Origin: Astropecten irregularis
Taxonomy: Eukaryota; Echinodermata; Asteroidea; Paxillosida; Astropectinidae
Assembly: GCA_963971285.1 (NCBI GenBank)
Contig: OZ020249.1
Span: 682,001-746,000, forward strand
Direction: 5' to 3'
DNA: 64,000 nucleotides
In this document: in pieces, positions 34,501 through 48,789 of the stretch
Numbering within the stretch: the first letter of the stretch is position 1
Layout: every line of letters starts with the position of its first letter
Notes under the pieces: generated by a model
Told to the model about the DNA's origin: nothing
Seen by the model: the letters and a program-made list of their open reading frames with translations, nothing else
The model's database searches: none
Translations under genes and position numbers: made by a program

Positions 34501-37500
34501 TACTTATTTGTACTCACCGTCAAACTGATCAAATTCGAAATTTATTCCTATTCCTTAGTTTTGCTCGAAAGGATTCTCTCGGAAATTAAAAAAATTTTGT
34601 TTGTTTGGATCTTGTGTGTTGTGTGTGCATGTGACGGTGGCTTTGATTTCAAGATAACCACTGTGTTTTGAACTGCATTGTCTACCCAAAATATTTTATG
34701 CATGAAATTCTATGTTCATAATTCTAAAGAATAGATTCGACTGACAGAAGACGTCAATTGCTGTGGAATTGTAAATTTTACTCTAACATTGAGTTTGACG
34801 TGCAAATGAAGTGGAAATATGTATTTGTTTGTGTGTCTTTTACGGCGGCCATTTTGTTCAAGACCATTGCTCTCTTTTGTGTTGTCTTCCAAAGTCTTTA
34901 AATAATATTTGTGTGTTAGTGAAAAAGAATGATTATATTTTTCCCCCTTTTCAATTATTGCTGCCTCCTAAATCAGGATCTTACTGAGATTTTTGGAATA
35001 TTCAGATAAAGTTTTTGTTGTAAGGGCCTGTTTTGTGCACGGGATCCGTGATGATCTGCAGATCTACGTCCCATGCAGGATACGCTAAAATGGGATCCGG
35101 ATCAGCAGGATCACGGATCTTGTATTAAAAACAGACCCTAATAATATCATCAAATTTCCAATGATGAAATGACAGAGCTACACCTCTGTTCATCGTCAGA
35201 GCATACTTGGATTTCTATCATTCTTGCAATTTGTCCGAGTTACAAATTTTATCACAGTCACCAAATCGCCTCTCCATTTTATTCCACCTCCATCGTACCT
35301 TCACTCTTAGTTCCTGAATACTAGCTACGTCAGATTCAAACTCTTCCATTGTCATTTCTTTATACCAATCTTCCAGTCAGTTTGTCCACTTGTTTGTCTG
35401 TTTCCACTCGACTGAGTTTATCATGATTGTTTCAAAACTTTTGTTCAAGATTTTGTACGATTGTTTCTTTATTGGATCGTGTGTACCTTTGGTTTTTCCT
35501 TGAGGGTTGATTTGAACCATTTGTGATATTTGTCTTCTCTCGTAGGGGAGTTTGCCTTGAGGGTTGATTTGAACCATTTGTGATATTTGTCTTCTCTCGT
35601 AGGGGAGTTCGCAGAGCATGACCAGCTTGTACAGTCAAGCCGGTGAGGAGAATTATGGGAAATATGTCATCACGGGTGACATGAACTTTGGGATGAGTTA
35701 CAACTACAAGACCAACGTCTTTGAGGTCAAGGTCAAGGCATGCCGTGACCTAGCCCCGGTGGATGCTAAGAGAATCAAATCAGACCCGTAAGACATTGAG
35801 CTGTTCAGATATTTCAAAGATTTATGTATCAGTCATTCAGTGTTGGAGTACTCGTATATACTCAAGAACAACTCAAATAGTGCAAATACTTGGCCCGTAG
35901 TTAATAAATAGTACCGTATGTTCACATTTTTATATCGATCTCACTTCTCGCAATTAAGGTCTCAACGTTTCGACAAGCCTGCTCTTGTCCTCATCAGGAA
36001 ACGTACTTGAAATAGTACCGTACTTGAAAATAAATGCTCTTGGCCCATACTCGATTGCATGTACTCAAATTTTGGGAATACTTGAAAATTTCACACTATT
36101 TTTTATTTTTGTTACAATTTCACGATTGATTATGTTAGCGATTGCCAATAAATAATACAATGGGAGTATGAAGATCATCGGGAGTTTAGTATCAAATGGA
36201 GTAAGCAGCACAGTGTCATTTGCAAGGTTTGCAAAACAAGAATTTATAAGAGTGGCACAACGTCCACTGTAAACGTTTTTTTTTTTAAACTAAAGGCATT
36301 TATTGGTACTGTGCATGTATACGGATGTGGACTCAGACTTGTTGGGTACTCAAACTCAGCCCTGTACTCGTTTTTGATACTTTAGACTCGGACTCGTCAG
36401 CAATGTACTCGGACTCGCCCCTGTACTCGGATCTTGAATATACTCCTACTCTATACTTAGGACTTGGTTTGACAGCAATGTACTCAGACTCAGCCCAGTA
36501 CTCAAACCTTGAAGAACTCTGAGTACTCTGTACTCGAATTTGAGGATTCAACTCCAACACTTCTGTCTACCACCACTAGGCTCTTGGACACATGTCCCTT
36601 GATGCTTCCTACTGTACAGTACAGGTCCCCTGAGCGGTCAGCTCCTCATAGATGAGCCCTGGAACTGCCAAGATTAGTCAGTACTCTCCTTGTTCCTTTT
36701 TCCATGTGAAATTGAAAACAGTTCATTAATGTCAGGTGGTGCTTCAGGAGTAAGCTTAAGGGGAATTGTCTCTAACATCCAGGCTGTCATTACTGGGGCC
36801 AGTTTCATAGAGCTGCTTAAGCACAACATTTGCTTTAAAAGCATGAAAAGTCTTCCTCGATCAAGTAGTCATTCTCCTGAGGACGAACAGAGCACACTGT
36901 TCGGAACGTCGAGATAATACCAACGGTTCTTCTCAGAACCACACACTCTCACAGAAGAGATTACATGGTGTCATTGCAAACTTACCTTCATTTCAAGCTG
37001 GTTATATTACCAACCATATTTTCATCTGATGTTTACTGCTTTTGTATTCAGCCATTGTTTGCTGAGTATAACATTCACAAGGAGTTTTGGCTGACATACT
37101 GATTTTATTTACCAAGGTTTTTGGTGCTGATGTAAATTGTGGTGCTTTAGCGGCTCTATGAAATTGGCCCCTGGCATTCCTGGAGAGTTTGAGTGAATGA
37201 TGCTTTGCTGGCCATTATTAAACTTGAAAGAGGCACCGGCTGAAACTATCAGCTCGCTTGAAGCCAATATGAGTTGTCTTGCGAAAAGAATCTTTGTTTC
37301 GCATAAGCCTCAAGTAAGCTTGACTTAATTTCTGTGTCTTTATTGCAAACAACCCAACAGGTACGTGAAAACCTACCTCCTTCCGGACAAGACCAAAGCC
37401 AGTAAACGTAAGACATTCATACGTAAGGGCACGGTGAATCCCCAGTATGACGTGGCCCTTAGGTATCACATCTCACAGAGCGAGCTGGAGACAAGGACCC

Positions 37501-40500
37501 TGAGTCTGACGGTTTGGAACAACGATGCCTTTGGACGCAACGACTTCCTCGGTGAGGTCCTGGTCAACATGGACTCCGTGCAGCTTGACGACTACAAGCC
37601 CCACTGGCATCCGCTGGGTAACAAGGTACGATTGCAAAGCCCTCAACTCAAAGCCCTGCCTGCACTGGACTTTTCTTGGGCAAAGTTACCAAGACGCTGG
37701 GTACTTTACCCATTTTAAGACCAGTGCAGATGTCTCAGGAAGTCTTCATCTCAGTTACTTTTCCCGACCCACGCGGGCAATTCTACTGGCCAACTTCTGC
37801 CCAGGAAGAATTCCCAAGTCGAAAAGTCCAGTGCGGACAGTGCGAGTCGGGTACCCTCATGAGCCTAGTATTGACAGCTTGGTAATTCTTCCACGCATAC
37901 ACGGTTAAGTTACCCGAGTCAAAAGTCCAAGTGCGGACACCGGTAATATTTGCCCGTTTTTCATTTACACATCAGCTCAGTGAAACCCCCTAAAAAAAAG
38001 AGTCCAGTGCGGACACCGGACAGGGCTTTACATGTATAAACACAACACTCATGACACAAAAGACTGAGGCTGTTCTGCAAAATGAACATCTGTTTCTAAT
38101 ACCAGAAAACTTGGATACTGTCATACTGAAATATAGGCCTAACTTACAGGGTATAAATATGGTGCTGGTAGAAACATACCATTACAATTCATCTGCCTGA
38201 AATGCTGTTTTTATCAAAAGGAGTAAAACCAATCACCAAAAACAATGTTGATCTTCGGAAGATCAAAAATAACGGTGAAATTATTTTTGAAATACTGTGG
38301 ACGTTTTCACTGTTGTCTCAAAAAGTGGGCACCATATGGGACTGGAAATTTCACAGATGACTGTTACTGTATCTTTCTTGATATTTTTGTCCATGAATCT
38401 GTATTTCTCTGGCAAAAACCAAAGTATGAAAAATCTTGTAAAATGGTGACATTTACAATTTTAACATAATAAATGAATCATAAAGCTTTGTGAAGTCAAG
38501 AAGATGCATTTCCAGTGCAAGTGGAAAGTCTCACACAAAACAAACCCAAAGAAATATTGCATCAAGATTGTTTTGTTTGGTAAACTTTACAGTCCCAGCC
38601 AGCAGAGGGCGCCGTTGCCTACAAAGGTGACTTATTCCTCTCTTTGATGTACTCTGACGGGGCACTTCCGGAGCCTGAGGAGAAAGACGCTAAGAAGAAG
38701 AAGAAGAAAGACAAGTCAAAGAAGCCCAGCAAGAGAGCTGACACTAAGGGCGTGTTGCACGTCAAAATCAAACAAGCTAAGAATCTGGTCGGTGTTCGAA
38801 TGGGCGGCTCATCCAATCCTTTCGTCAAGGGGTAAGTTGACGTGTTGCAACAAATCTTGGAATCTTCGGATTAGCAAATCCGGTGCGACGAAACTAGGAA
38901 TCCCAGTTTCGTTGACGGATTTTCAAATCCATTGTTGCATTCAGAGATATTTGCAGCCAGATTAAAAAGGCAGAATTCAAATCTTTTTCAACCACTGTAA
39001 AAGAGACAGGAGATATATAATGACATACCATACTTTGATTAATCATCTTTGTCTGAAATGCACATTCCCCTAGGTATTTGGAGCCCGACAGATCAAAAAC
39101 GGGGAAGCACAAAACTCAAGTCTTACGTGGCACGTGCAACCCCGTCTGGGAGCACGTTATGAAGTTTGATAATGTCACCTTGCACTCCCTGAAAGAAAGG
39201 TGTCTGGAACTGACAGTGTGGGACCATGAGACGCTCTCTTCCAACGAGTTCCTGGGAGGAACCAGACTAAACCTTGGCACTGGTGAGTAAAACAGTCAAA
39301 GTCCATGCTTTGGTGTTAAAGGTATAGTATCATACTGTGGTAAGAAACCAAAACAGAAATGTTCACAGATTTACATATAACTTACAGGGTATGACGATGG
39401 TGGTGGTAGAAGCATACCATTAAAATGTTTCCGCCTGAAATGGTGTATTTATCCAGAATTTAGTAAAACAACGACCAAAAATCTTTTTGATCTTTTAAAA
39501 GATCAAAAATAAAAGAGAAAAGACTTAAGAAATACTGTGGCTGTTTTTCACTGTTTTCTCAAAAAGTGGGCACGGTATTGGACTGAAATTTTCACAGATG
39601 ACTGTTACTGTATCTGTCTTGATATTTTTGCTATAAACCAAAGTATGATACCACCTTTAAACACAGAAAACAGTTTTGATCTCAGGATACGATCAAAACC
39701 ATTCTTTGTGTTCTATAAGAAACATTGAGTCGGGTTTTAGCTATTTTCTTGTGACTCAGATGTTCGATTGAGCTCACATCAGACAAAGTGTGAATGCTGT
39801 TCTTTGACTTTTACCAATCACGTATGACCTTTAAGTTCTCCTGAGCTCCAAGCAGCGACAGAAACTCTGTCCGATAATTTAGAATGGCTCTTCTAGCCCC
39901 CAAAAATATTGGCTCTAGACCTGCGCCTGCCGTTAGATTCAGAGCAGAACATCCCCCTATCTCTCCTGAAATCTCAAAATCCTCCAACTTTATGGCAGAA
40001 AATAAAAACCCAGACTTTTTCAAGTTGTGGTGGACCCATAGGAAGAAATCTTGAAAGATGTGTTCCTTATCTAAGAAAGCCCAAACCGGCCTTAAACGAG
40101 GTATGTGTAAAGCATTTGGGGTAAAATTGTTGCTAGCGCTGAGTGACAAATGCCACAAGATTACCCACTGTCCTTTGCATGGGCATGAGTAATGCCGAAA
40201 ACAGGAATCTTCAATAAGATCCATAGGGCATTTACGAAACGGAGGCTGAAGCTCAGGCTCAGACTCTAGCTCTGACATCCATATGCTGAAAATATAGATT
40301 GTGGTTTTTCACTGAAGCTGAAGCTAAAACTCTGTTTTCCTTTTCAAACCAGAGAATCAGAACCGCTGCCATCAAAAAGCTCTATTTTGATTCCCCTTAT
40401 TTTAGAATGTATTCACGAAATGGAGCCGGAGCCTGAGACGGAGCCTGAGCCTCTGTTTCATAAACGCCCATAGATAGAAGTGGTTCAACTTGTGTTCCAT

Positions 40501-40711
40501 AAAAGCAAGGAAGAGAAACAAAAATACATCATATTTTTTCCGTCTTTTTTCTATTTTACCAGGTGAATACCAAAGGAAACCAGCCAGTTGGAATGACGCG
40601 ATGGGTGAGGAGATTAGATTGTGGGAACAAATGTTGAAAAATCCTGGCAAATGGTCAGATTCAACAGTCACTCTCCGACCCAACATGGTCAGTCGGTTGC
40701 AGTTCACGTAA
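1301..40711 (+). CDS. Synaptotagmin-like protein (SYTL / bitesize type), 3' part of gene, 11 exons
   Basis: Exons: 1301-1564, 5941-6110, 14871-16886, 26020-26195, 28614-28709, 30008-30346, 35603-35787, 37361-37625, 38593-38831, 39074-39282, 40563-40711. All junctions are GT-AG and codon phase is continuous throughout. After the first base, which completes an upstream codon, the coding length is 4107 bases, giving 1,368 residues plus stop. The order is a tail that looks like the end of a Rab-binding (SHD) region (LETGEW), about 950 residues of Ser/Asp/Glu-rich probably disordered linker, C2A (about residues 1048-1170) and C2B (about 1177-1345). The C terminus matches the Slp pattern (GEEIRLWEQML..PGKW). 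Family members bind Rab27-type GTPases and phospholipids and act in vesicle docking; the Drosophila member bitesize organises apical actin. The upstream exons are outside the window. The orthology call is inferred from motifs and was not checked by alignment. Confidence 0.9.
1980..2202. repeat. Small inverted-repeat element (AGCCTTTA ends)
   Basis: The left end (tatagcctttacaaaatgag) is the near reverse complement of the right end (gcctggtttattaaaggctc). The core at 2058-2180 recurs at 53798-53924, sharing GGGCTTGAGATACA and GGCTTCGTCATGTG. Partial ends of the same kind occur near 10030 and 54722. Probably a non-autonomous DNA transposon. Confidence 0.55.
2332..3090. repeat. Degenerate TTAA-A MITE copies
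   Basis: 2332-2625 begins ttaaaggtactaccatactt and carries the shared arm in reverse (catttccggcggaacatttt). 2735-3090 carries the shared arm forward and the A-type right arm (ACAGATGACTGTTACTGTAT at about 3009). Both are old and diverged. Confidence 0.6.
3205..4063. mobile_element. Inverted-repeat element with ATGTTATATTGGCATAAC ends, carrying a SINE
   Basis: The left end (GGCCTAAAAAA then atgttatattggcataac) is mirrored at the right end (ggttacaccaacataacata, then ATGCCTAAGGCC). A second, shorter element of this type lies at 53921-54300 (ttgtattggcgtaacccg). The middle holds a tRNA-derived SINE on the minus strand. The 144-codon open frame across it (3443-3877, minus) shows no protein domain. 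Confidence 0.55.
3393..3464 (-). repeat. tRNA-derived SINE head (tRNA-like, Thr-GGT-like anticodon position)
   Basis: Read on the minus strand it folds as a near-complete 72-nt cloverleaf: acceptor GGCTGGA/TCCAGTC, D-arm GCTC/GAGC, anticodon stem CCTG/CAGG with GGT at the anticodon position, and T-loop TTCGAAT. The A box (TGGCTCAGTTGG) and B box (GGTTCGAATCC) are intact. Position 33 is C rather than U and one T-stem pair is broken. The same tRNA-like unit with the same upstream flank (attggggtcaccaccaacat) recurs at 31081, so I call it a SINE and not a working tRNA gene. Confidence 0.7.
4556..4790. repeat. Interspersed repeat (CCACAGTCTCCAC type)
   Basis: Shares catgtattctacacaaa, GGTGTATTGTGGTATTCAGG and flanks with 45958-46085. 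Two diverged copies in this window; class unknown. Confidence 0.45.
5004..5125. repeat. Palindromic MITE (GGGCCTGTTTGTTTCAGGC ends)
   Basis: The ends gcctgtttgtttcaggca and tgcctgaaacaaacaggc are inverted repeats. The interior contains GATCCTGCTGATCCGGATCC. A second copy lies at 35023-35139 in the opposite orientation. Confidence 0.6.
5552..5692. repeat. TCGATTTCATGAAGCCC foldback element
   Basis: The ends are ggtcgatttcatgaagccct and atgagtttggtgaaaac. The interior has CGATCGATCGTAACTTGAG and GGATAACC. Related copies occur at 12440-12615, 17889-18046, 24108-24206, 63612-63742 and 63749-63897. Confidence 0.6.
5845..5896 (-). repeat. tRNA-like SINE fragment
   Basis: On the minus strand it reads ...GGTAAGCAGGAGGTCATGGG then a perfect B box (GGTTCGAATCC). 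Only the anticodon-to-T-arm half is tRNA-like. Probably a fragment of a tRNA-derived SINE different from the one at 3393. Confidence 0.45.
5941..6110 (+). CDS. SYTL exon b (linker)
   Basis: Acceptor TTTCCAG is at 5940 and donor CAAG|GTGAGT follows 6110. It enters in phase 2 (AG from the previous exon plus C gives Ser) and leaves in phase 1. It encodes SGSEQYSVTDSSEVDAVVEP and then a basic, charged stretch (RRDRKGSEKGKE). No domain; probably disordered linker. The open frame, matching phases and strong donor support it. Confidence 0.85.
6182..6950. repeat. Large foldback element with GGCCGATTTCAC ends and GACGCGTC blocks
   Basis: The left end ggccgatttcacgaaacact is matched by the inverted right end tttggtgaaatcggcccc. 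Subterminal arms repeat AAGACGCGTCTTAG, GTCCTAGGATCGATTTCACC and their complements. The middle (about 6360-6820) is unique. A non-autonomous foldback transposon. Confidence 0.6.
7333..7529. mobile_element. TTAA-B MITE, internally deleted
   Basis: Ends ttaaaggtataatacatgat and accaatcatgtattgtacct then TTAA. It contains the B arm (GAGCTCAATCAGACATCTGA) and lacks the arm shared with the A family. Confidence 0.7.
9734..9763. repeat. Perfect 30-bp palindrome
   Basis: tttcccactagcctataggc continues with tagtgggaaa and is its own reverse complement, with no loop. Flanks AATAA and TTATT extend the symmetry after one extra base. Function unknown. Confidence 0.85.
10095..10290. repeat. Half of an AAAGGTTTACTGTAATC element, next to a G tract
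   Basis: aaaggtttactgtaatcaaa at 10160 and the following sequence (ttggaaaggggtgaaa, taagtgcttaa) recur inverted at 62967-63215, where both ends are present. A run of G lies at 10088-10100. Confidence 0.5.
10622..10815. mobile_element. TTAA-A MITE, right half
   Basis: Carries the A right arm (ACAGATGACTGTTATGGTAT) and the end aaccaaagtatggtactacc followed by TTAA. The left half is missing. Just upstream (10586-10615) is a copy of the GATCCTG/CAGGATC hairpin repeat. Confidence 0.65.
11655..12010. mobile_element. TTAA-A MITE
   Basis: Nearly full length with a diverged left end. The shared arm (ttacgtataacttacagggt) is at about 11696, and the A right arm ends accaacgtatgatattacct then TTAA. 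Confidence 0.7.
12440..12615. repeat. TCGATTTCATGAAGCCC-family foldback, rearranged
   Basis: Has CGATCGATCGTAGGACTC, aatttcaccaaactcattgt and two TAGGATAC blocks, so it looks like two partly overlapping copies. Confidence 0.5.
12729..13259. mobile_element. Two adjacent TTAA-A MITEs (one half copy, one full copy)
   Basis: 12729-12895 is the right half only. 12897-13259 (363 bp) is complete: TTAA, aggtaatatcatactttggt, shared arm, A right arm, and inverted end ccacagtatgatataacctt then TTAA. It is the best-preserved A copy in this intron. Confidence 0.75.
14871..16886 (+). CDS. SYTL exon c (672-residue acidic, Ser-rich linker)
   Basis: Acceptor GTCACCAG is at 14870. It enters in phase 1 (G plus CG gives Ala: AYEAHHES) and leaves in phase 1 at TCTG|GTAAAG after 16886, which joins exon d as GGG. 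It carries repeated Ser/Asp clusters (SGSDVSTDS, SSSDSVTTPSDEGDS, SISDSSSDESETDSDS) typical of CK2-type phosphorylation targets, and one short helix-prone stretch (LQTKLKKNQNLMQELMKEI). No folded domain was recognised. A textbook donor, G|GTAAGT, also lies inside at 16313/16314 in the same phase, so a shorter form that joins exon d in frame is possible. Without splicing the frame ends at 16951. Confidence 0.88.
17010..17302. repeat. 21-bp minisatellite, 14 copies
   Basis: The unit ataagctattttgacatacc plus G repeats 14 times in a row. Unit positions differ only at ATACCG versus ACACCG, in the order T-C-T-T-C-T-T-T-T-T-C-T-T-C (T for ATACCG). Because 21 is divisible by 3, several frames stay open (for example a PISYFDI heptad), but there is no sign of a gene. 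It begins 123 bases after the exon c donor. Confidence 0.95.
17303..17812. other. Unassigned insertion splitting the 21-bp array
   Basis: The array stops one base short of a unit at 17302, and two more units plus a partial unit resume at 17813-17868. The 510-bp block between starts TGTAACGGGCCGAGC and resembles no other sequence in the window. I could not find target-site duplications or inverted ends, so its class is open. Confidence 0.45.
17889..18046. repeat. TCGATTTCATGAAGCCC-family foldback
   Basis: Ends ggtcgatttcaacaaactca and cttcatgaaatcgacccc. The interior has CTATCGATCATAGGACTACG and TAGGATACAACGGGTTATCC. A complete copy. Confidence 0.65.
18652..19765. mobile_element. 1.1-kb foldback DNA transposon with TAAGGCCCGG ends
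   Basis: Ends taaggcccggttcagacgtc and gacgtctgaaccgggcctta are exact inverted repeats, and the inversion runs on through ttatgccgtgtcgaat. TA at both outer edges may be a 2-bp target duplication. Internal copies of GCACGACGTCTGAA and CGGCACGGCA near 18720-18880 make further nested hairpins. No transposase frame, so non-autonomous. Confidence 0.75.
20060..20290. repeat. GCCAATTTCATAGAGC foldback element, partial
   Basis: Begins ggccaaattcatagagctgc, then CATGAAAAGTCTTCCTTGAT and cggccattgtttgctaagca. The inverted right end is worn. Related copies: 36795-37171, 45144-45866, 47247-47646 and 55895-56035. This copy lacks the hammerhead-like insertion present in two of the others. Confidence 0.6.
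21413..21595. repeat. Palindromic MITE with GGCTGCGTTC ends
   Basis: GGCTGCGTTCAAGCGGTTAC at the left mirrors gctcgctcgaacgcagcc at the right. The interior repeats GAGTATACTC-type palindromes. ATA on both sides (21410-21412 and 21596-21598) fits a 3-bp target duplication, as in PIF/Harbinger-like elements. Confidence 0.6.
22161..22492. mobile_element. TTAA-B MITE, full length
   Basis: TTAA, aggtacagtacttacaggat, the shared arm (TGAAGATGGTGCTGGTAGAA), B arm (ttgagctcaaattttcacag), inverted end accaatcatgtattatacct, TTAA. Confidence 0.75.
23469..23575. repeat. GATCCTGCTAGGATCGAAAC hairpin repeat, inverted pair
   Basis: Two head-to-head copies of GAGAAAGATCCTGCTAGGAT followed by GAAAC. Single copies of the motif occur near 10586, 22638, 27800, 28375, 55860, 56085, 58185 and 60365-60470. 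Always flanked by GTCAGGCC or its relatives; class unknown. Confidence 0.55.
24108..24330. repeat. Two adjacent small foldback elements
   Basis: 24108-24206 is a TCGATTTCATGAAGCCC-family copy. 24213-24325 is a different foldback: tcattgctaaagcccaaatc is mirrored by gatttgggctttacgatgat around an aattttctgtttagca core. Confidence 0.55.
24992..25222. mobile_element. TTAA-A MITE, internally deleted
   Basis: TTAA, aggtagtatcatactttggc, the shared arm (tttacgtataacttacaggg), then a jump from the hairpin centre (GATCTTTTAAAAGATC) to tttacccatgaatctggatt and aaaaaccaaagtatc. Confidence 0.65.
26020..26195 (+). CDS. SYTL exon d (acidic linker)
   Basis: Acceptor GTGACAG ends at 26019 and donor GCA|GTAAGT follows 26195. 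It enters in phase 1 and leaves in phase 0. It encodes EGNEDMGCVCSEQDPSCIPG then DDQDYYIKANGTSHVSDKED and ends AVHIA. Three cysteines within ten residues (CVCSEQDPSC) are the only feature. No known domain. Confidence 0.82.
26760..27452. mobile_element. TTAA-B MITEs (fragment, then full reversed copy)
   Basis: 26760-26893 is the B-arm end only (ttgagctcagattttcacat ... accaatttgtgtattatacc). 27076-27452 is a reversed full copy: gtaaaatacatgattggtaa, B arm, shared arm, ttaccaatcctgtactgtac. Confidence 0.65.
27877..28315. mobile_element. hAT-like non-autonomous element (CAGGGCTCGAAAT ends)
   Basis: Left end cagggctcgaaat and right end atttcgagccctg are exact 13-bp inverted repeats of a form common in hAT elements. 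AAATG stands on both sides. The flanking repeat has an uninterrupted relative near 56140-56210 (acatgctaaatatatgagaa), which gives the empty site. No transposase. Confidence 0.65.
28614..28709 (+). CDS. SYTL exon e (acidic linker)
   Basis: Acceptor CTTCAG ends at 28613 and donor GGG|GTGAGT follows 28709. Phase 0 at both ends, 32 codons: DDRRHADEEDEDIDRHFMVH then GGLTPDTKNKYG. Being symmetric and in phase it could be skipped without a frameshift. No domain. Confidence 0.82.
28710..30007. other. SYTL intron e
   Basis: Contains one TTAA-A MITE (28855-29241). The remaining 29242-30007 shows a run of TTGCCATGG-like blocks (29680-29740) but no gene or named repeat. Confidence 0.55.
28855..29241. 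mobile_element. TTAA-A MITE, reversed, full length
   Basis: TTAA, aggtaatatcatactttggt, reversed A arm (gatgcagtaacagtcatctg), reversed shared arm, caccaaagtatgataatacc, TTAA. Confidence 0.75.
30008..30346 (+). CDS. SYTL exon f (Ser/Thr/Pro-rich linker before C2A)
   Basis: Acceptor CACTTAG ends at 30007 and donor AAG|GTAAAC follows 30346. Phase 0 at both ends, 113 codons. It starts IDSNTKSQQDPDSC and ends SLQRRLSPGSNLSK. Low-complexity linker with several basic-directed Ser/Pro sites. Reading on past the donor gives a stop at 30445. The acceptor tract is weak, but an in-frame TAG immediately before the exon and the phase match fix the start. Confidence 0.8.
31111..31172 (+). repeat. tRNA-derived SINE head, second copy
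   Basis: Same tRNA-like unit and flank (ttggggtcaccaccaacat) as 3393-3464 but in plus orientation. The acceptor arms GGCTGGA/TCCAGTC and the A box are kept. About ten bases are missing around the variable loop and T-stem. The tail (tctttctttgttcactagtc) also matches the first copy. Confidence 0.7.
32850..33110. mobile_element. TTAA-A MITE remnant
   Basis: Shared arm (acctataacttacagggtat), reduced A arm (gggcaccatatgggactgga) and right end acataattatgatattaccc. The left terminus is lost. Confidence 0.55.
33220..33722. mobile_element. ACGTACG foldback DNA transposon, copy 1
   Basis: Ends ggggccgtccataaagtacg and cgtactttatggacggcccc are inverted repeats. TTA flanks both sides, as in 3-bp-target-site families such as PIF/Harbinger. 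Inside are G-rich runs and repeated ATGCGTACAGGGGGGGAGG. A near-identical inverted copy sits at 58947-59451. No transposase. Confidence 0.8.
35023..35139. repeat. Palindromic MITE, second copy of the 5004 family
   Basis: gggcctgttttgtgcacggg ... aaaaacagaccc. The core (CCCATGCAGGATACGCTAAA, GATCCGGATCAGCAGGATC) is the reverse complement of the 5004-5125 core. Confidence 0.6.
35498..35611 (+). promoter_or_regulatory. 57-bp tandem duplication carrying a duplicated 3' splice site
   Basis: Positions 35498-35554 and 35555-35611 are near-exact tandem copies, and each has the tract and acceptor TTCTCTCGTAG followed by GGGAGTT. The downstream acceptor (AG at 35601-35602) gives exon g. The upstream one (AG at 35544-35545) would add 57 bases in frame with TGA as the fifth codon. 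Confidence 0.85.
35603..35787 (+). CDS. SYTL exon g (start of C2A)
   Basis: Enters in phase 0 (GSSQSMTSLYSQAGEENYGK) and leaves in phase 2 at CC|GTAAGA after 35787. It holds the first strands of C2A (GDMNFGMSYNYK, VFEVKVKACRDLAPVD) and reaches SDP of the conserved SDPYVK motif, completed by exon h. The typical Slp sequence GxINFxLxYDYK is clearly recognisable. Confidence 0.93.
35919..36009 (-). mobile_element. Short insertion with hammerhead-ribozyme-like core, copy 1
   Basis: A 91-bp block flanked by an exact 13-bp direct repeat, AAATAGTACCGTA (35906-35918 and 36010-36022). On the minus strand it reads CTGATGAG, stem GACAAG, loop AGCAGG, stem CTTGTC, then GAAACGTTGAGA. This matches the CUGANGA / stem II / GAAA layout of hammerhead ribozymes except for one extra G before the stem. 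Stems I and III were not resolved. It sits in a repeat that also carries a BED-finger fragment. Confidence 0.6.
36161..36274 (+). pseudogene. BED zinc-finger fragment of a hAT-type transposase
   Basis: Frame reads WEYEDHREFSIKWSKQHSVI then CKVCKTRIYKSGTTSTVN. The CxxC followed by the Y.SGTTS.. stretch is characteristic of BED fingers in hAT transposases and ZBED proteins. The frame runs out soon after and no catalytic domain follows, so this is a relic. The flanking 36305-36545 is rich in TGTACTCGGACTC-like repeats. Confidence 0.55.
36305..36545. repeat. Degenerate TACTCGGACTC simple repeat
   Basis: About ten imperfect copies of GTACTCGGACTCG-like units. TACTCGTATATACTC near 35848 is similar. 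Probably part of the same element as the BED fragment. Confidence 0.5.
36795..37171. mobile_element. GCCAATTTCATAGAGC foldback with hammerhead-like insertion (copy 3)
   Basis: Ends ggggccagtttcatagagct and ggctctatgaaattggcccc are inverted repeats. After CATGAAAAGTCTTCCTCGAT a block of about 135 bp (36868-37005) interrupts the element. It contains CCTGAGGAC, stem CGAACAG, loop AGCACA, stem CTGTTCG and GAACGTCGAGA, a worn version of the hammerhead-like motif. It shares TTACATGGTGT with the insertion at 47303. Confidence 0.55.
37361..37625 (+). CDS. SYTL exon h (rest of C2A)
   Basis: Acceptor CCAACAG ends at 37360. The first G completes Pro of SDP, then YVKTYLLPDKTKASKRKTFI, the hallmark C2A sequence of Slp proteins including the polybasic strand. 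It ends HWHPLGNK at donor AAG|GTACGA after 37625, phase 0. Loop 3 reads NNDAFGRND where calcium-binding C2 domains have DxDxxxxxD, so the first of these aspartates is Asn. The other ligand positions (VD in loop 1, SDP) are kept. Confidence 0.95.
38105..38440. mobile_element. TTAA-A MITE, diverged
   Basis: Shared arm (aacttacagggtataaatat), central hairpin GATCTTCGGAAGATC and A arm (ACAGATGACTGTTACTGTAT) are present. Both termini are worn. Confidence 0.6.
38593..38831 (+). CDS. SYTL exon i (start of C2B with lysine-rich insert)
   Basis: Acceptor TTTACAG ends at 38592, phase 0: SQPAEGAVAYKGDLFLSLMY. It then carries an acidic and lysine-rich insert (EEKDAKKKKKKDKSKKPSKR) between the first two C2B strands, then GVLHVKIKQAKNLVGVRMGG and SSNPFVKG. 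SNP replaces the usual SDP calcium-ligand motif. Leaves in phase 2 at GG|GTAAGT after 38831. Confidence 0.93.
39074..39282 (+). CDS. SYTL exon j (core of C2B)
   Basis: Acceptor CCCTAG ends at 39073. G completes Gly, then YLEPDRSKTGKHKTQVLRGT, CNPVWEHVMKFDNV, and LELTVWDHETLSSNEFLGGT. These match C2B strands 3 to 7. Loop 3 (DHETLSSNE) lacks most of the acidic ligands of calcium-binding C2 domains. Leaves in phase 1 at CTG|GTGAGT after 39282. Confidence 0.95.
39316..39834. mobile_element. TTAA-A MITE followed directly by a TTAA-B half
   Basis: 39316-39660 is a full A copy (TTAA, aggtatagtatcatactgtg ... ccaaagtatgataccacctt, TTAA). 39665-39834 is only the B-arm half (gttttgatctcaggatacga ... 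accaatcacgtatgaccttt). Confidence 0.7.
40220..40470. repeat. Foldback repeat in SYTL intron j
   Basis: gcatttacgaaacggaggct with GAAGCTCAGGCTC at the left is mirrored by GAGCCTGAGCCTC and tgtttcataaacgccc at the right. Lies just upstream of the last exon. Confidence 0.5.
40563..40711 (+). CDS. SYTL exon k (C terminus of C2B, stop)
   Basis: Acceptor TTTTACCAG ends at 40562. It enters in phase 1 (G plus GT gives Gly) and reads GEYQRKPASWNDAMGEEIRL then WEQMLKNPGKWSDSTVTLRP and ends RLQFT with TAA at 40709-40711. The W..A.GEE..LW..ML..PG.W pattern is the conserved C-terminal helix and strand of Slp C2B domains. Sequence after 40711 is 3' UTR of unknown length; no convincing poly(A) signal was picked. 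Confidence 0.93.
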
Positions 40712-43534
40712 CGACAACATCTTGCCACATTCCTACCGCAGTTTTTCTTCTTTTTTTTTCGATTTTTTTTTACCAAGTGAAAAACCTCCAAGCAAAAGAA
40801 GCTGTAAGATGAAATACCGTAATAAGCCTGCAACGTCTGAAGAAGCTGAAAGTGAAATTGAATACTGCCCTCAAGAGGACAACCAATTTGTGGCATGATG
40901 AAACAGCGCCCTCGCTTGGTCATGCAAGGTGATGCCCTTGGGCTCTTAACAAGATTATCCAGCTAGCATCAATCCAACCATTAGTCTATGTGATAGACGC
41001 ACTCAACGTACATATACAGCGAGCAAGCATCTATCACAAGCATGCAAATTTCCTGATTAATTATGCAAAATAACCCAGCACTGACTGACCTCCCTAAGTT
41101 TTGACCAATCAGGGGGCATCTACTATCCTACGTTTGGTGAGCGCGTCTATCACGTAGATAGCTACTGCCCGCGGACGCGCAAAATTGACCAATCAACATC
41201 CTCCATCACGATCCTGACGAAAATGTTCTCAAAACAGATCTGATTGGCTGATGTGCTGCTTTGCATATAATTTACATGTATGCATGTATCAGACGTTCGT
41301 ATGTAGTGACACGGAGTAGGATGGGTGATACTCAAACTAACCAACCATTGGATTAACTGCGTAGGAATGGAGAATTTTGACACATCATCCTGACAAGTAA
41401 AGCTGCTTTCTTTGAAGATATTTATTTCATTATACTCCCTCGTCCTATATATCATAAATATTTCGAAAATATACTAAGAAATGTAATTTTAAATACCAGT
41501 TTATGAAATATGTACACATATTCAAGGTGCAGGTGACACTGTTGTATTGCTATTCAAAAATATTTGGGGTGATTTTATATAACACTATAATCTTTTTAAG
41601 CTTGATAAATAATTAATTGAAATGTAAACGATACTAAAATATTTTTCCAACAGCACGTACTATACACATTTTGGGGTAATTCGAAAAAAAAAAGACTTGA
41701 AACTTTGTAATCTGGTAATTATTATACAATTGTTTACTGTTTTGTTTACATTTAACTGGTGTTGCGGGATCATATAATCACTTAATGAATATTCATTATG
41801 ATTTGATCATATGTACTGGTGTTATATCTTATAAAGGGCCAATGAAGGTTGTTATTTGGTAAAGCAATGGGATAGATTGTATTATTATGTATGCCATTAC
41901 TGAATTTACTTGTTTATTTGGGTTCTGCAGTCATCAGTTACTATTAAAGAGATTTAGGCCCTAACATGAATGCCTAAATGCCCTGTTAACGAGTGCAAGC
42001 ACTGAGCATAAGCATTAGCCTAGTTGCTTGCAGTGACAGAATATCAGACAAGTTGACTGTCGGACAACTCAACTTGAGACAGTTCGACCACTAAATATCA
42101 GGCTTGCAACATTTCCTTGGATCAGCTGATTTCCTCTTTTTTCATTTCTCATTTATGCCATTAAAAAGTGAAAAACTCTGTACAAAGTATGATAAAGATT
42201 GGAATTTCCTGGGTTTTTGTAAAGACCAAGTTGCATGCCTGCCACTTGTCTGAACCTATAATGCCTCTAGAAGTCTACAGTTGCATAAGGCTGTTTCAAA
42301 GTACCAGGATAGTATTTGTCTTGGTTGAAGATATTATTTACGCGCGACTCCCCCCAAATTACCCACACACACGAATGAAGTGGAACATTCCACCTCACAA
42401 CGAAAAAACAACGGGCTTGTGTGTGGGGTAGACGCGTTCTCGGGTCGTTTGCTGTGTTGAAACGTGCGATGTGCCAGTACTGCCAAATGTAGTCATAGTA
42501 CCACCACTTAATCATCTATCAATGCTACTGATGCAGTCTGTTCTTTGTTCCATGCTTTGCAACCCCTGTCCAAGTTGTGTTTTGTTTAATTTCATTTTAT
42601 TGCCAGTTGCCAGTTGATTATGTAAATTTCCATATAAATTCTGTACATAAGCCAAATTAATCGTTTCTTGTATTGTTTTTTGAATGAACTTTAAAATTGA
42701 ATTTCATTTGAAAACAAAAATCACTATGCATATATATAATTACCTTTTTTTCCTTACTGCACTTTTTTCTATAGTTCTATGCATGTATGATGTTACAGTA
42801 TGTTAGTGGATGCAAATGGCTAACTAGATTACTAGATTTTCAATTTATTTTTCTTCTTAAGATTTTAGACTTTATGTATTGCGGTACGGGAGTTGGATAC
42901 CAGACCGAAAGAAGTGCCAAACTTTGATTGGATGAGGCAGTTTTTGAAATTAAAAGGAGACATTCATAGGCCTGTTTGAGGTGCGCTTTGCGTTTCAGCT
43001 TGAAGGAAATGCATTTTCAATTTTTTTGGCGGTTGCACTAGTAGCCTAACCAGAGAATGACTAAATATTGGCAACTTGGCTCTATTTTCAATTACTGTAG
43101 TTATTCGGTTATATCATTCATTATGCACATTTTAAGCAACAAATATTATCTTTGCGAGACATTGTTTTGATTTTATTTTTGTCCTACGGCTATCAGTTCG
43201 ATCGAGTTCACCGCGCGCTTTTAGAGAATTTCATTTCAAATTAATTATTGGGCCAGTTTTAAGTAGAAGTCGATCTTGTATATAAGATGTCCCTTTAAGA
43301 GTGCCTTTTATAAGGAGTACTGCACCTTCAAAATCGGGCAAAACTGTGGTTATTTGAATCATTTTTAGTCAATGTGATATCGAATACCTGCGTAGTCTGT
43401 TGTTTTATTCACCGGACTCGTTGTCGCAAATTTGTTGACTGTTTCCGGTTGTCATTCCCAAGAAATGGCCAGTGTAGTAATAGTAAAATGCAGCTGATTA
43501 TGATGCCAATTATAAGAGTGTGTCTGGCAGACTT

Positions 43535-44310
43535 CCTGATTGGCCGGTAGACTGGCAGGTAAACCCACGGTAGACTGGCCAGTAGACTGGCTTGTAAACT
43601 GGCCTGTAAACTGGCCGGTAGTCTGGTTGGTAGATGGGCTGGTAGACTGACCGGTAGACTGACCGGTAGACTGGCTGGTGAACTGGCTGGTGAATTGGCC
43701 GGTAAAGTGCCCATTAGTCTGGCTGGTTGACTGGCTGGTAGATTTGCTGGTAAACTGGCCGGTAAAGTGGCCGTTAGTCTGGCTTGTAAACTGGCTGGTT
43801 GACTGACCGGTAGACTGGCTGGTAAAGTGGCTGGTACACTGGCCGGTATACTGGCTGGTAAACTGGCCGGTAGAATTGATGGTAGACTGACCTGTAAACT
43901 GGCTGGTTAACTGGCTGGTAAACTGGCCAATAGACTGGCTGGTACATTGGCAAGTAAACTGGCTGGTAGACTGGCTGGTAGACTGGCCGGTAGACTGGCT
44001 GGTACACTGGCCGGTAGACTGGCCGGTAGACTGGCTAGTAAACTGGCTGTTAGAATTGATGGTAGACTGACCTGTAAACTGGCTGGTAGACTGGCTGGTA
44101 GTCTGGCCGGTTGACTGGCCTGTAGACTGGCTAGTAAACTGGTCGGTAGAATTGATGGTAGACTGACCTGTAAACTGGCCGGTAGACTGACTGGTAGTCT
44201 GGCCGGTAGACTGGCCTGTAAACTGGCCAGTAGACTGGCCGGTAGACTGGCTGGTAGACTGGCCGGTATTCTGGCTGGTAAATTGGCTGGTAGTGCGGTT
44301 GGCAGACTGC
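43535..44310. repeat. 12-bp minisatellite, about 64 copies
   Basis: The unit is ACTGGCYGGTAR with variants (ACTGACC, AATTGAT). A marked block (GAATTGATGGTAGACTGACC) recurs at 43873, 44053 and 44149, that is 180 and 96 bases apart, multiples of 12, so longer segments were duplicated too. On the minus strand all three frames are open; the longest is 308 codons of S/T/G/Q four-residue repeats. I see no splice sites, signal peptide or recognisable flank and do not call it a gene. Confidence 0.9.
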
Positions 44311-45143
44311 CAAGCTGGCCGAATCCCACCCCTCCAATTGCCGACAGGCTTATCATGTCTGTCCTTAGTTTTTAGCATTATACATGATTATCGCGTGGTA
44401 ATGTTGATTTCTTTTAAAATCCATTTGTTGGTTTGCTTCCTTTGCTGACAACAAGCAATAATGTTTTTAATAGTGGTCCTTAACACCCGTCTTTGAAAAA
44501 AAAATTGAAAAAATAAATAAAAATGGTAAAAAAAAATGATTAAAATTCTAAAAATGGGGAATATACATGTAATTTCCAGACGGGGAAATGTATCACCTCT
44601 CTTCTCGGGGACTACCGAGAAAAAAGAGGAATTCTTTCGATGGAATTCTGAATAATTCTGGCTTAAATTGATCACCCCATTCGTCGCTTATTATCACGCG
44701 CATTCCTCTGTCTCCTGACAACATGTACTCTTCACTCTATTTTTGTATATTTTTTCACATTGACCGTGTATACCATTTTATTACGATTCTATTAAACAAA
44801 AACTCACTAAATACTTTGATATTATCTAATTGTGGGTAAGCCTAAACATAATACAATTAATGTATACGGGGTTTTAATTAATGGTTTAAAATCATATAAC
44901 TGATAATAATAATAATAAACATACAATGAATGAACTATTTATTAATAAAATGCCGCATTTGTGTCTCATATTTTGTTCCTTTTGTAATGAAGATAATGAG
45001 TTTGGTCAGACAAAACTTGAATTTGTCCGTTTCATAACTTTGCAGAACTGTTTTTTTTTTAATGGCAACAGTTTCCTAAGAAATTTGTGCCCACACCCTG
45101 TGTACGTCACGTCGAATTGCCTTCAGTGAAGAAGATACGATCT

Positions 45144-45866
45144 GGGCCAATTTCATTGAGCCGCTTATTAAAGCAGCAAAAGTATTTTGCTTAAAGGTAG
45201 TATCATACTTTGGTAAGAAACCAAAACAGAAATGTTCACAGATTTACGTATAAATATCAGGGTAAGAAGATGGTGGTGGTAGAAACATACCGTTAACATT
45301 GTTCCGCCTGAAATTGTGTATTTACACGAACGAAAATCTGTTTGATCTTTTAAAAGATCGAAAATAAAAGAGAAAAGACATCAGAAATACTGTGGTTGTT
45401 TTTCACGACTTTCTCAAAAAGTAGGCACTGTATGGGACTGAAATTTGCACAGATGACTGTTACTGTATCTTCCTCGATATTTTTGCCCATGAATCTGTAC
45501 TTCTTTGACAAAAAACAAAATTATGATATTACCTTTAAGCAGCCAAAACTTGGTTAATGAAATCAGTATGCCAGCCAAAACCCATTGCAAATAGCCGAAT
45601 GGAAGTCAAAAGCAATAAACATTACCTGGGGCCAATTTCATAAAACTGTTAAGCAAAACAATTTGCTAAGCATGACATTTCTGTCTTAATAAACACAGGG
45701 TTAACTACCAGATTTCCATGTGTTGTGTATCACTTGTGATTGTTCTTTGACTGTTGTTCGCTGAACATGAATATCAAATGGAATTTTCAATGTTGGTTTG
45801 TTTTATTGTGCGAGATATTTTCATGCTTAAAGCAAGTTTTGTGCTTAAGCAGCTCTATGAAATTGG
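45144..45866. mobile_element. Two GCCAATTTCATAGAGC foldbacks, the first with a nested TTAA-A MITE
   Basis: 45144-45625 begins gggccaatttcattgagccg. Within it at TTTGC|TTAA|GCAG a full TTAA-A MITE is inserted (45191-45538). 45628-45866 is a second copy ending gcttaagcagctctatgaaa. The uninterrupted TTTGCTTAAGCA in related copies shows that TTAA was duplicated on insertion. Confidence 0.75.
45191..45538. mobile_element. TTAA-A MITE, full length, nested
   Basis: TTAA, aggtagtatcatactttggt, shared arm, hairpin GATCTTTTAAAAGATC, A arm, caaaattatgatattacctt, TTAA. 348 bp including both TTAA. Confidence 0.8.
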
Positions 45867-45957
45867 TATATAGAACGGTGAGACGTTCTTGTATAAATAC
45901 AATCTTTTTCTTATAATTACATAATGTATTTACATCCACCATTATGAAGCTTTAACC

Positions 45958-46380
45958 CCAACCTTGTGCTGTGCTGTTTACCACACAATACCACAGTCCC
46001 CACATGGGGACTAGATCATAAATCACGCATTTCCACACAAACCACACTGTGGTGTACTGTGGTATTCAGGATACCACAGTAATACTATAAACATAAAAAT
46101 AATAATAATGGACCGGTATCCGCCAAGCATGGCCCTCATGGCCTAAATTAATTATTACCCCTGATATCAGGCCATAATTTACATTCCTGAAACCATATCA
46201 ACTCCCTGGGGAGTATACAGCCCTGGCTTTTCAGTGCACAGAGGCTAATCAAACCACAAAGCCATCTCTACCCTCACGGGTACCCATTTACTCCTGGATG
46301 AAGAGGAGCAATATGTGACAAAGCGTAAGGCTTGCCCAAGGACTCAAGCACCATTAAAAAACCCGTAATGCTTTACTGTG
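45958..46380. repeat. CCACAGTCCCCAC repeat and a second interspersed repeat
   Basis: 45958-46085 is a copy of the 4556 repeat. 46100-46380 contains GGTACCCATTTACTCCTGG and CTTGCCCAAGGACTCAAGCA, a pair of blocks I recall from interspersed repeats of many marine animals. Class not determined. Confidence 0.4.
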
Positions 46381-46393
46381 GTATGAAATGGGT

Positions 46394-46723
46394 TTAAAGG
46401 TACATGTAGTATCATACTTTGGTTTTTGTCAAAGAAATACAGATTCATGGGCAACAATATCAAGGAAGATACAGTAACAGTCATCTGTGAACATTTCAGT
46501 CCCAGACATTGCCCACTTTTTGAGACAATCGTGAAAAACGGCCACAGTATTTCTTAAGTGTTTTCTTTTTTCGGTCTTTGTTTTATTAATTTCTGGATAA
46601 ATATACCATTTCAGGCGGAAATATTTTAACGGTAGGTTTCTACCAGCATCATCTTCATACCCTGAAAGTAGTCTGTGAGCATTTCTGTTTTGGTCTCTTA
46701 CCAAAGTATGATACAACCTTTAA
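46394..46723. mobile_element. TTAA-A MITE, reversed, full length
   Basis: TTAA, aggtacatgtagtatcatac, reversed A arm (gatacagtaacagtcatctg), reversed shared arm, ttaccaaagtatgatacaac, then TTAA. Confidence 0.75.
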
Positions 46724-47246
46724 TAACCATTATGTTTGAAACAGTTAGGGCCTAAATAGTATTTACAAAGAAGTGGTGTTTCTTACATCAATCCCGAAAA
46801 TGATATAAGTTGTTTTTATTATGCCTCATAACAAACCAGAAGTGTTTAAAAAATATATATCGACAACAAATACTAATACTGCAGCTCAGTGAAACTCACA
46901 TCATAAGCGACGACATACCGTCCATTATCACTTGACTACAAGTCAGATTCCCGTTAACAAAACTCTTACAATTAAAACCAAATCCATTTTTGAAAAGGTT
47001 AAACTAGATCACTCTGAGTTAGTTCAAAAACTTCCAGGAGGTCTAATTAGGTACATCCCATGCAGGACCTCATCCATCCAGTGCACACGCTTCGTTCTCT
47101 CGCATTAGACCTTAGTGCATATAGCACTTCATGCTCACTTAATTTCGAGAAGTGGCACTTCAACAAAGATAGTTGAGAAGGCCTGCTTTAACGGTCATAG
47201 GCCTTTACGGTATTTCAGTTTGACTGGAGTTAGCAGCGAAAGCCCA

Positions 47247-47646
47247 GGGGCCAATTTCATAGAGCTGCTTAAGCACAAAATTTGCTTAAGCATGAAAAGT
47301 CTCCTGATGAGGACTAGAGCAGACTAGTCGAAACGTTGAGAACTTATTGCGAGAAGTGCGAACGATATAGAAGTGCGAACGATATAGAAGTGCGAAAGTA
47401 CGAACGATTATTACATGGTGTTTCCGCAAACCGATCCACATACCAATTGTCACCATGCAAAGCCTTATATATTTCGTGAAAAGTCTTCCTTGATCAAACA
47501 AATATGATCTTTACTACTTTTAACTTGTAATCGGCCATTGTTTGCTGGGCATAACATTCACAGGGAGTATGGGCTGGCATACCGATTTTATTTACGAAGG
47601 TTTTTGCTGCAAGCAACTAAACTTTACGCTCTATGAAATTGGCCCC
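47247..47646. mobile_element. GCCAATTTCATAGAGC foldback interrupted by a short insertion
   Basis: Ends ggggccaatttcatagagct and gctctatgaaattggcccc. The insertion at 47303-47476 splits CATGAAAAGTCT from TTCCTTGATCAAAC, which are contiguous in the copy at 20060. Confidence 0.7.
47303..47476 (+). mobile_element. Short insertion with hammerhead-ribozyme-like core, copy 2
   Basis: A 174-bp block flanked by an exact 10-bp direct repeat, TGAAAAGTCT (47293-47302 and 47477-47486). It starts CCTGATGAG, then stem GACTAG, loop AGCAGA, stem CTAGTC, then GAAACGTTGAGA. Next comes a 21-bp tandem, GAAGTGCGAACGATATA-like, and ATTACATGGTGT. The stem differs from copy 1 (GACAAG/CTTGTC) by paired changes. No open frame. 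Confidence 0.6.
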
Positions 47647-47817: not shown

Positions 47818-48789
47818 TCAATGTGATGTGCATCTACAGAATGATGCCATCGATCTGTTCAGAGTCTCCCTGAGTGCCTTATTCCTCCAGTAATAAATGA
47901 CAATATTCAACCAGTTGTTGCAGAAGAAGATGGCTTTAATAAGCACATTAAAGCTGGTTGGTCGGTGGACAGAAAGAGCCGCTAAGAGCGTATTGATGGC
48001 CGCTGGTGTCCAGCAGAGGAACAGGGTACCAGTGATGATGACCACTGTAGTCGCCGATTTGGTGCTGATGCGCTGTGGTGGATTCTGCCGGTCAACCGAT
48101 GATGCTGCTCCACCGATGCTGTTCTCAGCAGCTGCAATGCGCCGTGCCTGGCTTCTAGCAACGTGCAGGATGTGGAAGTACATCAAGAGGACTAGACCCT
48201 GAGTGAATACGATCATTGTCACGGCTACACCCTGGTACAGTGTCACATCAAGATAGTCACAGATGTAATCGGTCTCCTTGACCGACACGGATGGCGTGAC
48301 GATACCAAATAAGACTGTGCAGAGCGTCAAGACTGAACTCCAAGTAATAGCGAGTGCTATCTTGGCTCTCCGTGGCGTCATGATGTCGTTGTATCGTAGT
48401 GAGTACACGATAGCGACAAACCTATCGATGGAGATCAGTAAGAGTGACAAAGCACTGAGTAAAATGAGCGCTGGGTACACCACTCCCCAGAGGAGGCAGG
48501 GGAACTCACCCAGCGGCCATCGCCTCATGTAGACCTCCACTAAAGCCGGAACGGAACAGAATACTCCGATGGAGAGGTCGGACATCGTCAGTGAAGCCAT
48601 GAACAGCTTGGTCGTCTCCTGGAGGCTGGTGATGCGACGGAGCACGACGAGTCCAATGGGATTCAAGACCAAGATGAGAATAACCACCAGGGTCGCCAGG
48701 ACGTACGCCGTAATCGTCAGCCATTGTGGTTCATCATCTTCATATCCCGTCTCCGTAACGTTCATCAGTAGGTCTACCGATGCATTCAT
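47818..48789 (-). CDS. Class A (rhodopsin-like) G protein-coupled receptor, single exon, orphan
   Basis: 323 residues with seven membrane segments. N-glycosylation sites NAS and NVT lie in the short N tail. Landmarks seen: TM1 LNPIG, TM2 SLTMSDLS (D2.50), Cys before TM3 (FPCLLW) and Cys in loop 2 (YICDY) for the usual disulfide, ISIDRF at the end of TM3 (DRY replaced by DRF), W in TM4, FLCWTPAAIN in TM6 (CWxP), and NIVIY in TM7 (NPxxY with Pro replaced by Ile). Position 3.32 is Tyr, so it lacks the Asp that amine receptors use. Loop 3 is Ser/Arg-rich and the tail short, with three Cys-rich residues (FCRCTSH). Ligand unknown. Intronless receptor genes of this kind are common in echinoderm and amphioxus expansions. 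TATA-like CATAAAAAG lies about 120 bases upstream. Confidence 0.93.
   Translation of the reverse strand: MNASVDLLMNVTETGYEDDEPQWLTITAYVLATLVVILILVLNPIGLVVLRRITSLQETTKLFMASLTMSDLSIGVFCSVPALVEVYMRRWPLGEFPCLLWGVVYPALILLSALSLLLISIDRFVAIVYSLRYNDIMTPRRAKIALAITWSSVLTLCTVLFGIVTPSVSVKETDYICDYLDVTLYQGVAVTMIVFTQGLVLLMYFHILHVARSQARRIAAAENSIGGAASSVDRQNPPQRISTKSATTVVIITGTLFLCWTPAAINTLLAALSVHRPTSFNVLIKAIFFCNNWLNIVIYYWRNKALRETLNRSMASFCRCTSH

Follow-up and report, generated by a model that had tools for sequence, protein, structure and literature searches.

Hammerhead motifs reportedly occur in Penelope-like elements (PLEs), as described by Cervera and De la Pena in 2014. The messages of retrotransposons end, to our knowledge, through poly(A) signals, ribozymes or the signals of long terminal repeats (LTRs). 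Among the described systems closest to the elements considered here is Poseidon of Anolis (PAc), in which reverse transcription has two start sites in an AC-rich stem loop, a tail of 30-40 bp is optional, and the cut lies 26 nt from the start of stem II (PMC11167929). For Penelope of Adineta vaga, the portions of the published account at hand (PMC3846280) describe a pLTR with a TATA box and a TCACT initiator, a 31-bp optional tail, head-to-head inverted pLTRs, solo pLTRs and duplications of 8-10 bp; a histone signal goes unmentioned in those portions. Animal retrozymes, according to excerpts of a further paper (PMC7229834), are small, carry a type I hammerhead and form tandem copies. The 3' end of replication-dependent histone pre-mRNA (RF00032) combines a 6-bp stem and a 4-nt loop with a downstream purine-rich element.

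The elements described below were found in a window of the genome of Astropecten irregularis, by which we mean the whole 64,000-nt stretch of DNA analysed, C12:682001-746000. With PAc they share a hammerhead near the leader, the 26-nt cut distance, an AC-rich hairpin where reverse transcription would start, an optional tail of 30-40 nt and a reverse transcriptase (RT) reading frame. Unlike in PAc, the hammerhead and the tail are separated in one lineage here by a histone stem-loop and a downstream purine-rich element, there are very many leader-only short copies, and the assignment of this lineage to the PLEs comes from the RT together with the downstream module, not from a GIY-YIG domain. The TATA box and TCACT, the optional tail, the inverted pairs, the short duplications and the solo copies are all reminiscent of the A. 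vaga element. The stem, loop and purine-rich element are those of a histone pre-mRNA end, but here the signal is part of a mobile element and adjoins a hammerhead fold, and the element extends past the cut site. Small size, the type I hammerhead and tandem copies in a few places (a 54-nt array) recall the retrozymes, whereas none of the 41 family-A copies analysed for their ends has a direct tandem partner in the upstream stretch retrieved. From the sequence comparisons we consider it probable that these short blocks are non-autonomous copies of a PLE leader, and that one PLE lineage likely uses histone-type 3'-end formation.

Three copies and two families in the window

The original prediction had placed three related blocks with a hammerhead-like core in the window, and the three cores are indeed there, at 35958-36003 on the minus strand and at 36871-36916 and 47298-47343 on the plus strand, with the stems it had named (GACAAG/CTTGTC, GAACAG/CTGTTC and GACTAG/CTAGTC, respectively) all present as described. 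Its view that one block is common to the three is correct for copies 1 and 3, while copy 2 belongs to a different subfamily, with the core GGAACGTCGAG and not GAAACGTTGAGA. Judged by their sequences, copies 1 and 3 are one family, which we call A, and copy 2 is a member of another, B3. A 39-nt query of the A type, allowed up to three mismatches, matched copies 1 and 3 only in the window, and had no match in 100 shuffles.

Copy 1 (35919..36009, minus strand) is a family A element truncated at its 3' side and devoid of the tail, as read from the letters and from alignment to another genomic copy (L126) over 35915-36002. It is flanked by the target duplication AAATAGTACCGTA, at 35906..35918 on the element's downstream side and at 36010..36022 on its upstream side, and 12 nt of filler separate the upstream duplication from CTGATG. 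Copy 3 (47300..47476, plus strand; 47299-47475 by alignment) also belongs to family A; its 3' end is the long one, tail included, and the target duplication TGAAAAG lies at 47293..47299 on its 5' side and at 47477..47483 on its 3' side. Both copies have the intact core GAAACGTT. The tail hairpin of copy 3, CATGGTG...CACCATG with an AC-rich loop, spans 47414..47457 on the plus strand; family A copies with the short 3' end stop within this hairpin.

Copy 2 (36869..36995, plus strand, by alignment to the PLE copy L176; its 3' boundary is possibly as far as about 37026) is homologous to the leader module of an autonomous PLE. Its core is GGAACGTC, of the A13G type. The copy continues into a histone stem-loop, overlooked in the original prediction: the Rfam Histone3 model matches 36920-36964, the stem-loop GGTTCTTCTCAGAACC itself occupying 36925..36940 on the plus strand. 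It is followed at 36953..36963 by the purine-rich AGAAGAGATTA, which on comparison with histone genes looks like their downstream element, and at 36964..36970 by CATGGTG, the 5' arm of the tail hairpin, both on the plus strand; the partner arm CACCATG is not seen in copy 2. No clear target duplication was found at the flanks of copy 2.

Such short units number more than 1,000 in the genome (475.7 Mb in 168 contigs). The exact core pattern of family A has 836 matches genome-wide, one of which (L021) appears unrelated by eye; a broader core pattern has 1,258, and the histone stem-loop with purine element of the copy 2 type has 1,098 exact matches. Reversed patterns gave no match in any of the three cases, and the counts leave out diverged copies. 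The proposal of a short mobile retroposon is supported.

The hammerhead-type fold and the ends of the copies

Family A elements run in the order GGTCTC, CTGATGA, one extra nucleotide, GACTAG, a 6-nt loop AGCANR, CTAGTC, GAAA, CGTT and GAGACC, followed by a central block, the tail hairpin and AAAGCCTCAAATCTTTCT. Stems I and III, left unresolved at first, can now be placed: stem I is GGTCTC/GAGACC, with 3-6 bp, and stem III is ACGU. In hammerhead numbering, A15.1-C15.2 and G16.2-U16.1 are the two halves of this ACGU, and since no loop joins them, stem III is possible only with a second copy (or in tandem). Hammerhead cores follow the rules CUGANGA ... GAA, plus NUH before the cut. These rules hold for family A and for copies 1 and 3 of the window, and copy 2 and the three PLE copies described below, with GGAA, violate them at A13; the hammerhead-type core claimed for all three blocks is therefore intact in two of them. 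Counted from where stem II begins, the cut would fall after 26 nt (6+6+6+8), between GTT and GAGACC.

The unpaired G said to precede stem II in every copy is not a constant, this position being G, C, T and A in 50, 23, 21 and 2 of 96 distinct sequences, respectively. A pair between this extra nucleotide and the G that follows stem II was considered and dropped: it can form in 28 of 50 rows of the alignment described below, is possible in the GGAAC lineage and is impossible where the nucleotide is G. At the end of the reading frame of another PLE (L091, on C24) we came across CTGAAGA-A-GGTGC...GCACC-GAAAGCTT, so an extra nucleotide also occurs there. This PLE was rejected as a carrier of either signal, as it has no Rfam hammerhead or histone match at E<=10.

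The original prediction had named the Rfam hammerhead models as a check. No match was obtained in the window between 35800 and 47700 at E up to 10. Elsewhere in the genome lies a tandem array, L009, with about 21 units that are each 54 nt long; Hammerhead_3 matches it twice, each time across two neighbouring units, and scores 28.0 bits (E 0.0079), below the gathering score of 48.5.

For covariation, the alignment comprised 50 rows taken from the 96 distinct 46-nt hammerhead sequences, the array excluded: 35 of the 37 without the GACTAG stem (L026+ and L152+ were omitted, being out of register), window copy 3, and 14 chosen at random from the 59 with the GACTAG stem. In stem II, 89.7% of cells pair, and three of the six pairs change on both sides, in agreement with the claim that its letters vary while pairing is kept. 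Stem I is paired in 67.3% of cells, with the inner three pairs present in 43-46 of the 50 rows. Over stems I and II together there are 52 double-change cells against 27.6 in shuffled alignments, a number reached by none of 500 shuffles, and slid controls gave 4 to 23; the shuffle control leaves the relatedness of the copies in place. The number of pairs changing on both sides (5) and that of further pair types (16) showed no excess, the shuffles reaching them in 443 and 472 of 500 cases. Stem II covaries across subfamilies, as judged from the aligned sequences.

The folding energy of a single copy is not exceptional, with z from -1.2 to -1.9 for copies 1-3 and 27, 8 and 30 of 200 shuffles, respectively, folding at least equally well; the corresponding number is 6 of 200 for the full-stem form of family A and 38 of 200 for the tail hairpin (z -0.9). 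RNA folding predicts that single copies adopt a structure other than the hammerhead. For family A and for copies 1 and 3 this is a hairpin pairing GANG with CGUY, which the monomer RNA may well adopt. As an alternative for the core it was rejected: although pairing is seen in 84.0% of its cells, 27 of the 50 rows do not pair at N7, and for this reason the hammerhead reading was kept.

Whether self-cleavage defines the end of the element was judged from the ends of 41 family-A copies, out of 50 chosen by their central block and not by the hammerhead (nine were not retrieved). At the 5' side, 28 of the 41 begin at positions 1-4, the outer edge of stem I, nine at positions 5-9, and four elsewhere (13, 39, 47 and 48). 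None begins at position 41, the predicted cut product, and the usual start is about 40 nt upstream of the predicted cut. TATAAG is found 30 nt upstream of the stem I edge in 48 exact copies, and in the three PLE copies TATAAA lies 39 nt upstream of CTGAGGA, with TCACT in between. A spacing of about 30 nt fits the standard distance from a TATA box to the start of transcription, and the usual 5' end therefore looks like a transcription start.

It is these ends that weigh on the original idea of a tiny retroposon whose hammerhead cuts its own RNA and thereby sets the ends of new insertions. Family A does keep the core, with GAAA(C/T)G in 34 of the 41 copies, which were not chosen for it, and GGAA(C/T)G in none (the region is absent in three, and four have single-letter differences); stem II covaries, tandem units reach the Hammerhead_3 score given above, and a PLE hammerhead cuts in vitro once the PLE protein is added (PMC11167929). 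However, starts some 30 nt past a TATA box and none of 41 at the cut indicate that self-cleavage is not what defines the end, the extra nucleotide and the loopless stem III are further difficulties, and cutting is dispensable for insertion in vitro (PMC11167929). We regard such a retroposon as quite improbable.

The 3' ends form two clusters about 35 nt apart, with 13 of 41 at position 162, 21 at 125-131 and seven elsewhere, as expected for a PLE "tail". Target duplications of at least 7 nt, 74% A+T, flank 11 of the 41 copies, against 0.55 expected from mismatched flanks. A head-to-head partner lies upstream of 16 of the 41, in retrieved stretches of 134-286 nt in these positive copies (the two facing copies of L122 are counted twice). 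The optional tail, the head-to-head copies and the short duplications are hallmarks of PLEs, here established for family A only. It is very improbable that the copies are ordinary SINEs driven by a LINE, with an accidental likeness to a hammerhead. Short, dispersed units with target duplications are what SINEs would give, but no poly(A) or simple-repeat tail is visible by eye, a TATA box and head-to-head partners would not be expected, and the module is common to PLE copies, as described in the following section.

The histone-type signal and its Penelope-like lineage

Copies of PLEs with an RT were collected as 106 matches to a 400-aa stretch of the L091 query, whose reading frame matches RVT_1 at 2.6e-8 and GIY-YIG at 9e-4, the latter below that profile's cut-off. 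The stretch downstream was viewed for five further RT matches, three of which carry the homologous module. These three (C16:13254460, C22:3615168 and C30:3091387) are 30, 30 and 28% identical to L091 and match a PLE RT with E of 7.6e-45, 2.9e-48 and 4.0e-40, respectively, and their modules are near-identical. Downstream of the RT each has a TATA box, a hammerhead, the stem-loop, the purine element and CATGGTG, with which the tail hairpin starts and which lies 90-93 nt after the start of CTGAGGA. In C16, in which the in-frame stop was checked, the distance from the stop is 70 nt to CTGAGGA and 122 nt to the stem-loop. Copy 2 aligns with the C22 module across window positions 36869-36995, and the suspected link to Penelope is in this way supported by a homologous module downstream of RT. 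Two other PLE families (L174 and L175) had no module in 0.9 kb each, the L174 stretch possibly beginning past the expected place, and a further family (L089/L090) was set aside, with no convincing hammerhead by regular expression and no histone match. No GIY-YIG was found at the places of the lineage with the histone signal among the 147 matches listed, and no autonomous partner of family A was found.

With Histone3, copy 2 scores 37.2 bits, above the gathering score of 34; L014, one of two in L023, and L177 (37.2 bits) are also above it, and L107 (31.5), L176 (25.5) and L173 (23.9) remain below it. Genome-wide, 75 of 91,728 first-look candidates were scored, and of the best 15 of these, 14 carry hammerhead or tail sequence by eye. 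The top score among them is 44.7 bits, compared with 41.9-42.2 in the histone gene cluster on C18 and 37.4 at the end of an H2B gene of the same cluster (L172; H2B was assigned by reading frame). Block by block, H2B has AACCGGCTCTTTTCAGAGCCACCCCAACTTCAAAAAAGAGATA where family B has AACCGGCTCTTTTCAGAGCCACCCCATACTCACAAAAGAG. The purine element is AAAAGAGATTATA in C16 and C30 and AAAAAGAGATTATAA after a presumed H1 gene; this downstream element appears similar to that of the genome's own histone genes, and a match to U7 is putative. AATAAA or ATTAAA was absent from the searched stretches of the three PLE modules. In the open-licence literature, covered in part through top-ranked results only, we found no report that places a histone stem-loop in PLEs or in any other retrotransposon, and no paper joining Penelope with the histone mRNA stem-loop.

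It is worth asking whether the stem-loop is a passive passenger, either a fragment captured from a histone gene or a hairpin in another use such as binding of the PLE protein, with the histone machinery never engaged. In two of the three PLE copies (L173 and L176) the loop contains a longer T-run and the score is under the gathering threshold, the tail required for reverse transcription lies past the histone cut site, and a protein-binding motif is known at the start of a PLE reading frame, where the tail lies (PMC11167929). A passive stem-loop would not be expected to retain both parts of the signal at histone-like spacing, or to stand 122 nt past the stop in C16. Nor does it account well for the pairing: a stem-loop is present in 11 of 123 hammerhead copies that were not selected for it, and 10 of these 11 retain all of the six pairs, and the intact versions (GGCTCT/AGAGCC, GGTTCT/AGAACC and GGTCCT/AGGACC) differ at pairs 3 and 4 only, in a compensated manner. 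We consider the passive reading unlikely, with more in its favour than the self-cleaving retroposon.

The relation of the stem-loop to the hammerhead core differs between lineages. In the lineage of copy 2, with its GAACAG stem, 398 of 438 have GGAAC; the GACTAG stem with GGAAC has 7 matches, and GAAAC across all stems has 1,258. All three PLE copies have GGAA. Loci selected by the stem-loop gave 20 hammerheads, nine with GAAA, eight with GGAA and three others, in a scan that scores these very letters and leans to GAAA. Over all scanned copies, 111 of 113 without the stem-loop have GAAA (many were selected for it), and of 28 with the stem-loop, 14 have GGAA and 10 GAAA. In B2 (L105 and L107) an intact core and the stem-loop are present together, though these two were chosen for GAAACGTTGAG. 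Family A, which has no stem-loop, thus keeps the core, which is mostly changed in the copy 2 lineage and the PLE, and both states occur in family B. Core and stem-loop are not mutually exclusive.

A leader-copy model and its consequences

As we picture it, the blocks would be non-autonomous copies, of about 90-180 nt, of a transcribed PLE leader. The leader would begin at a TATA-driven start site, with Pol II probably starting at the edge of stem I, would bear a PLE-type hammerhead, and would end in the AC-rich hairpin where the PLE RT starts copying; two RT start sites would give the optional tail. The short copies may then be 5' leader insertions made by the PLE enzyme from the tail, because reverse transcription that starts close to the 5' end has only about 125-165 nt ahead of it. 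Such mobilisation by the PLE enzyme, like the use of histone machinery and any cleavage, is what we infer from the sequence. In one PLE lineage the histone signal, stem-loop plus purine-rich element, sits between hammerhead and tail, and since the module also lies about 120 nt past the stop of the autonomous reading frame, it is most likely this downstream module that gives the PLE message its 3' end, through histone-type processing (SLBP and U7 snRNP). The hammerhead would be an earlier and in part redundant means of processing, altered in much of the histone-signal lineage.

There are points against the histone route. The tail where reverse transcription would begin lies downstream of a histone-type cut, so that a processed 3' end would have no tail, and either read-through RNA or the 5' leader must serve as template. 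The leader of the short copies has a stem-loop as well, and unless processing at this site is suppressed, the message would be destroyed. The lengthened loop of two of the three PLE copies, already mentioned, is a third such point. Against the model as a whole also count the loci in which an intact core and the stem-loop occur together, the lack of a GIY-YIG match for this lineage among those listed, the autonomous family A partner that was looked for in vain, and the numbers of covarying pairs and pair types, which shuffles equal.

A stronger version of the leader-copy model is tentative, and we lean somewhat against it: that a Penelope lineage replaced RNA processing by its ribozyme with the 3'-end machinery of host histone messages. 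The probabilities given to this version and to the leader-copy model were both lowered slightly because family B is mixed. If it is true, the message would have no poly(A), its synthesis, export and translation would be confined to S phase, and the pLTR would be much like a retroviral LTR, with a TATA box, a repeated region of about 90 nt (hammerhead plus stem-loop) and the tail. The short elements, two thousand or more, would be strong-stop insertions of the leader, some of them now independent lineages, one with an intact core and no stem-loop, another with the stem-loop and a dead hammerhead.

The leader-copy model extends the "tail" rule of PLEs, in that leader-only copies would follow from an RT start near the 5' end. 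Sister lineages with the hammerhead, the stem-loop, or both may help to test what the PLE hammerhead, long a puzzle, is for. The sequences suggest a mobile element that borrows the replication-timed RNA machinery of the cell; a retroelement that ends its message in the histone manner would be tied to DNA replication with no protein of its own for the purpose.

The inverted-repeat element and its surroundings

Two of the three hammerhead-type blocks in the window, copies 2 and 3, are enclosed by members of one inverted-repeat element with the ends GGGGCCAATTTCATAGAGC (36795-37171 and 47247-47646), and they appear to occupy nearly the same position within it. Three more ends of this element, with 3 mismatches, lie at 20062, 45143 and 45628. 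The window also holds a tRNA gene or tRNA-like copy (3392-3464, minus strand, 52.8 bits) and two open frames on the minus strand, one of 308 aa at 43452-44378 that consists mostly of TGQSTSQFT-like repeats, and the other of 323 aa at 47818-48789, which by eye reads like a seven-helix receptor.

Tandem arrays elsewhere in the genome

Some 21 units of 54 nt stand in tandem at L009:363-1511 (C1:3250862-3252010), each made up of one hammerhead and a spacer of about 8-12 nt. On the same contig, a tandem of the type of copy 2's subfamily, B3, carries 3 stem-loop copies at 102-nt spacing (C1:34964721-34964963).

A histone stem-loop behind a transposase frame

A pogo/Tigger-like DDE_1 transposase frame (PF03184, E 4.4e-6), apparently with a shifted reading frame, and, downstream of it, a histone stem-loop of 42.7 bits lie at L042:1066-1545, on C14 near 14724020. 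A DNA transposon gene may thus also have a histone-gene-like end.
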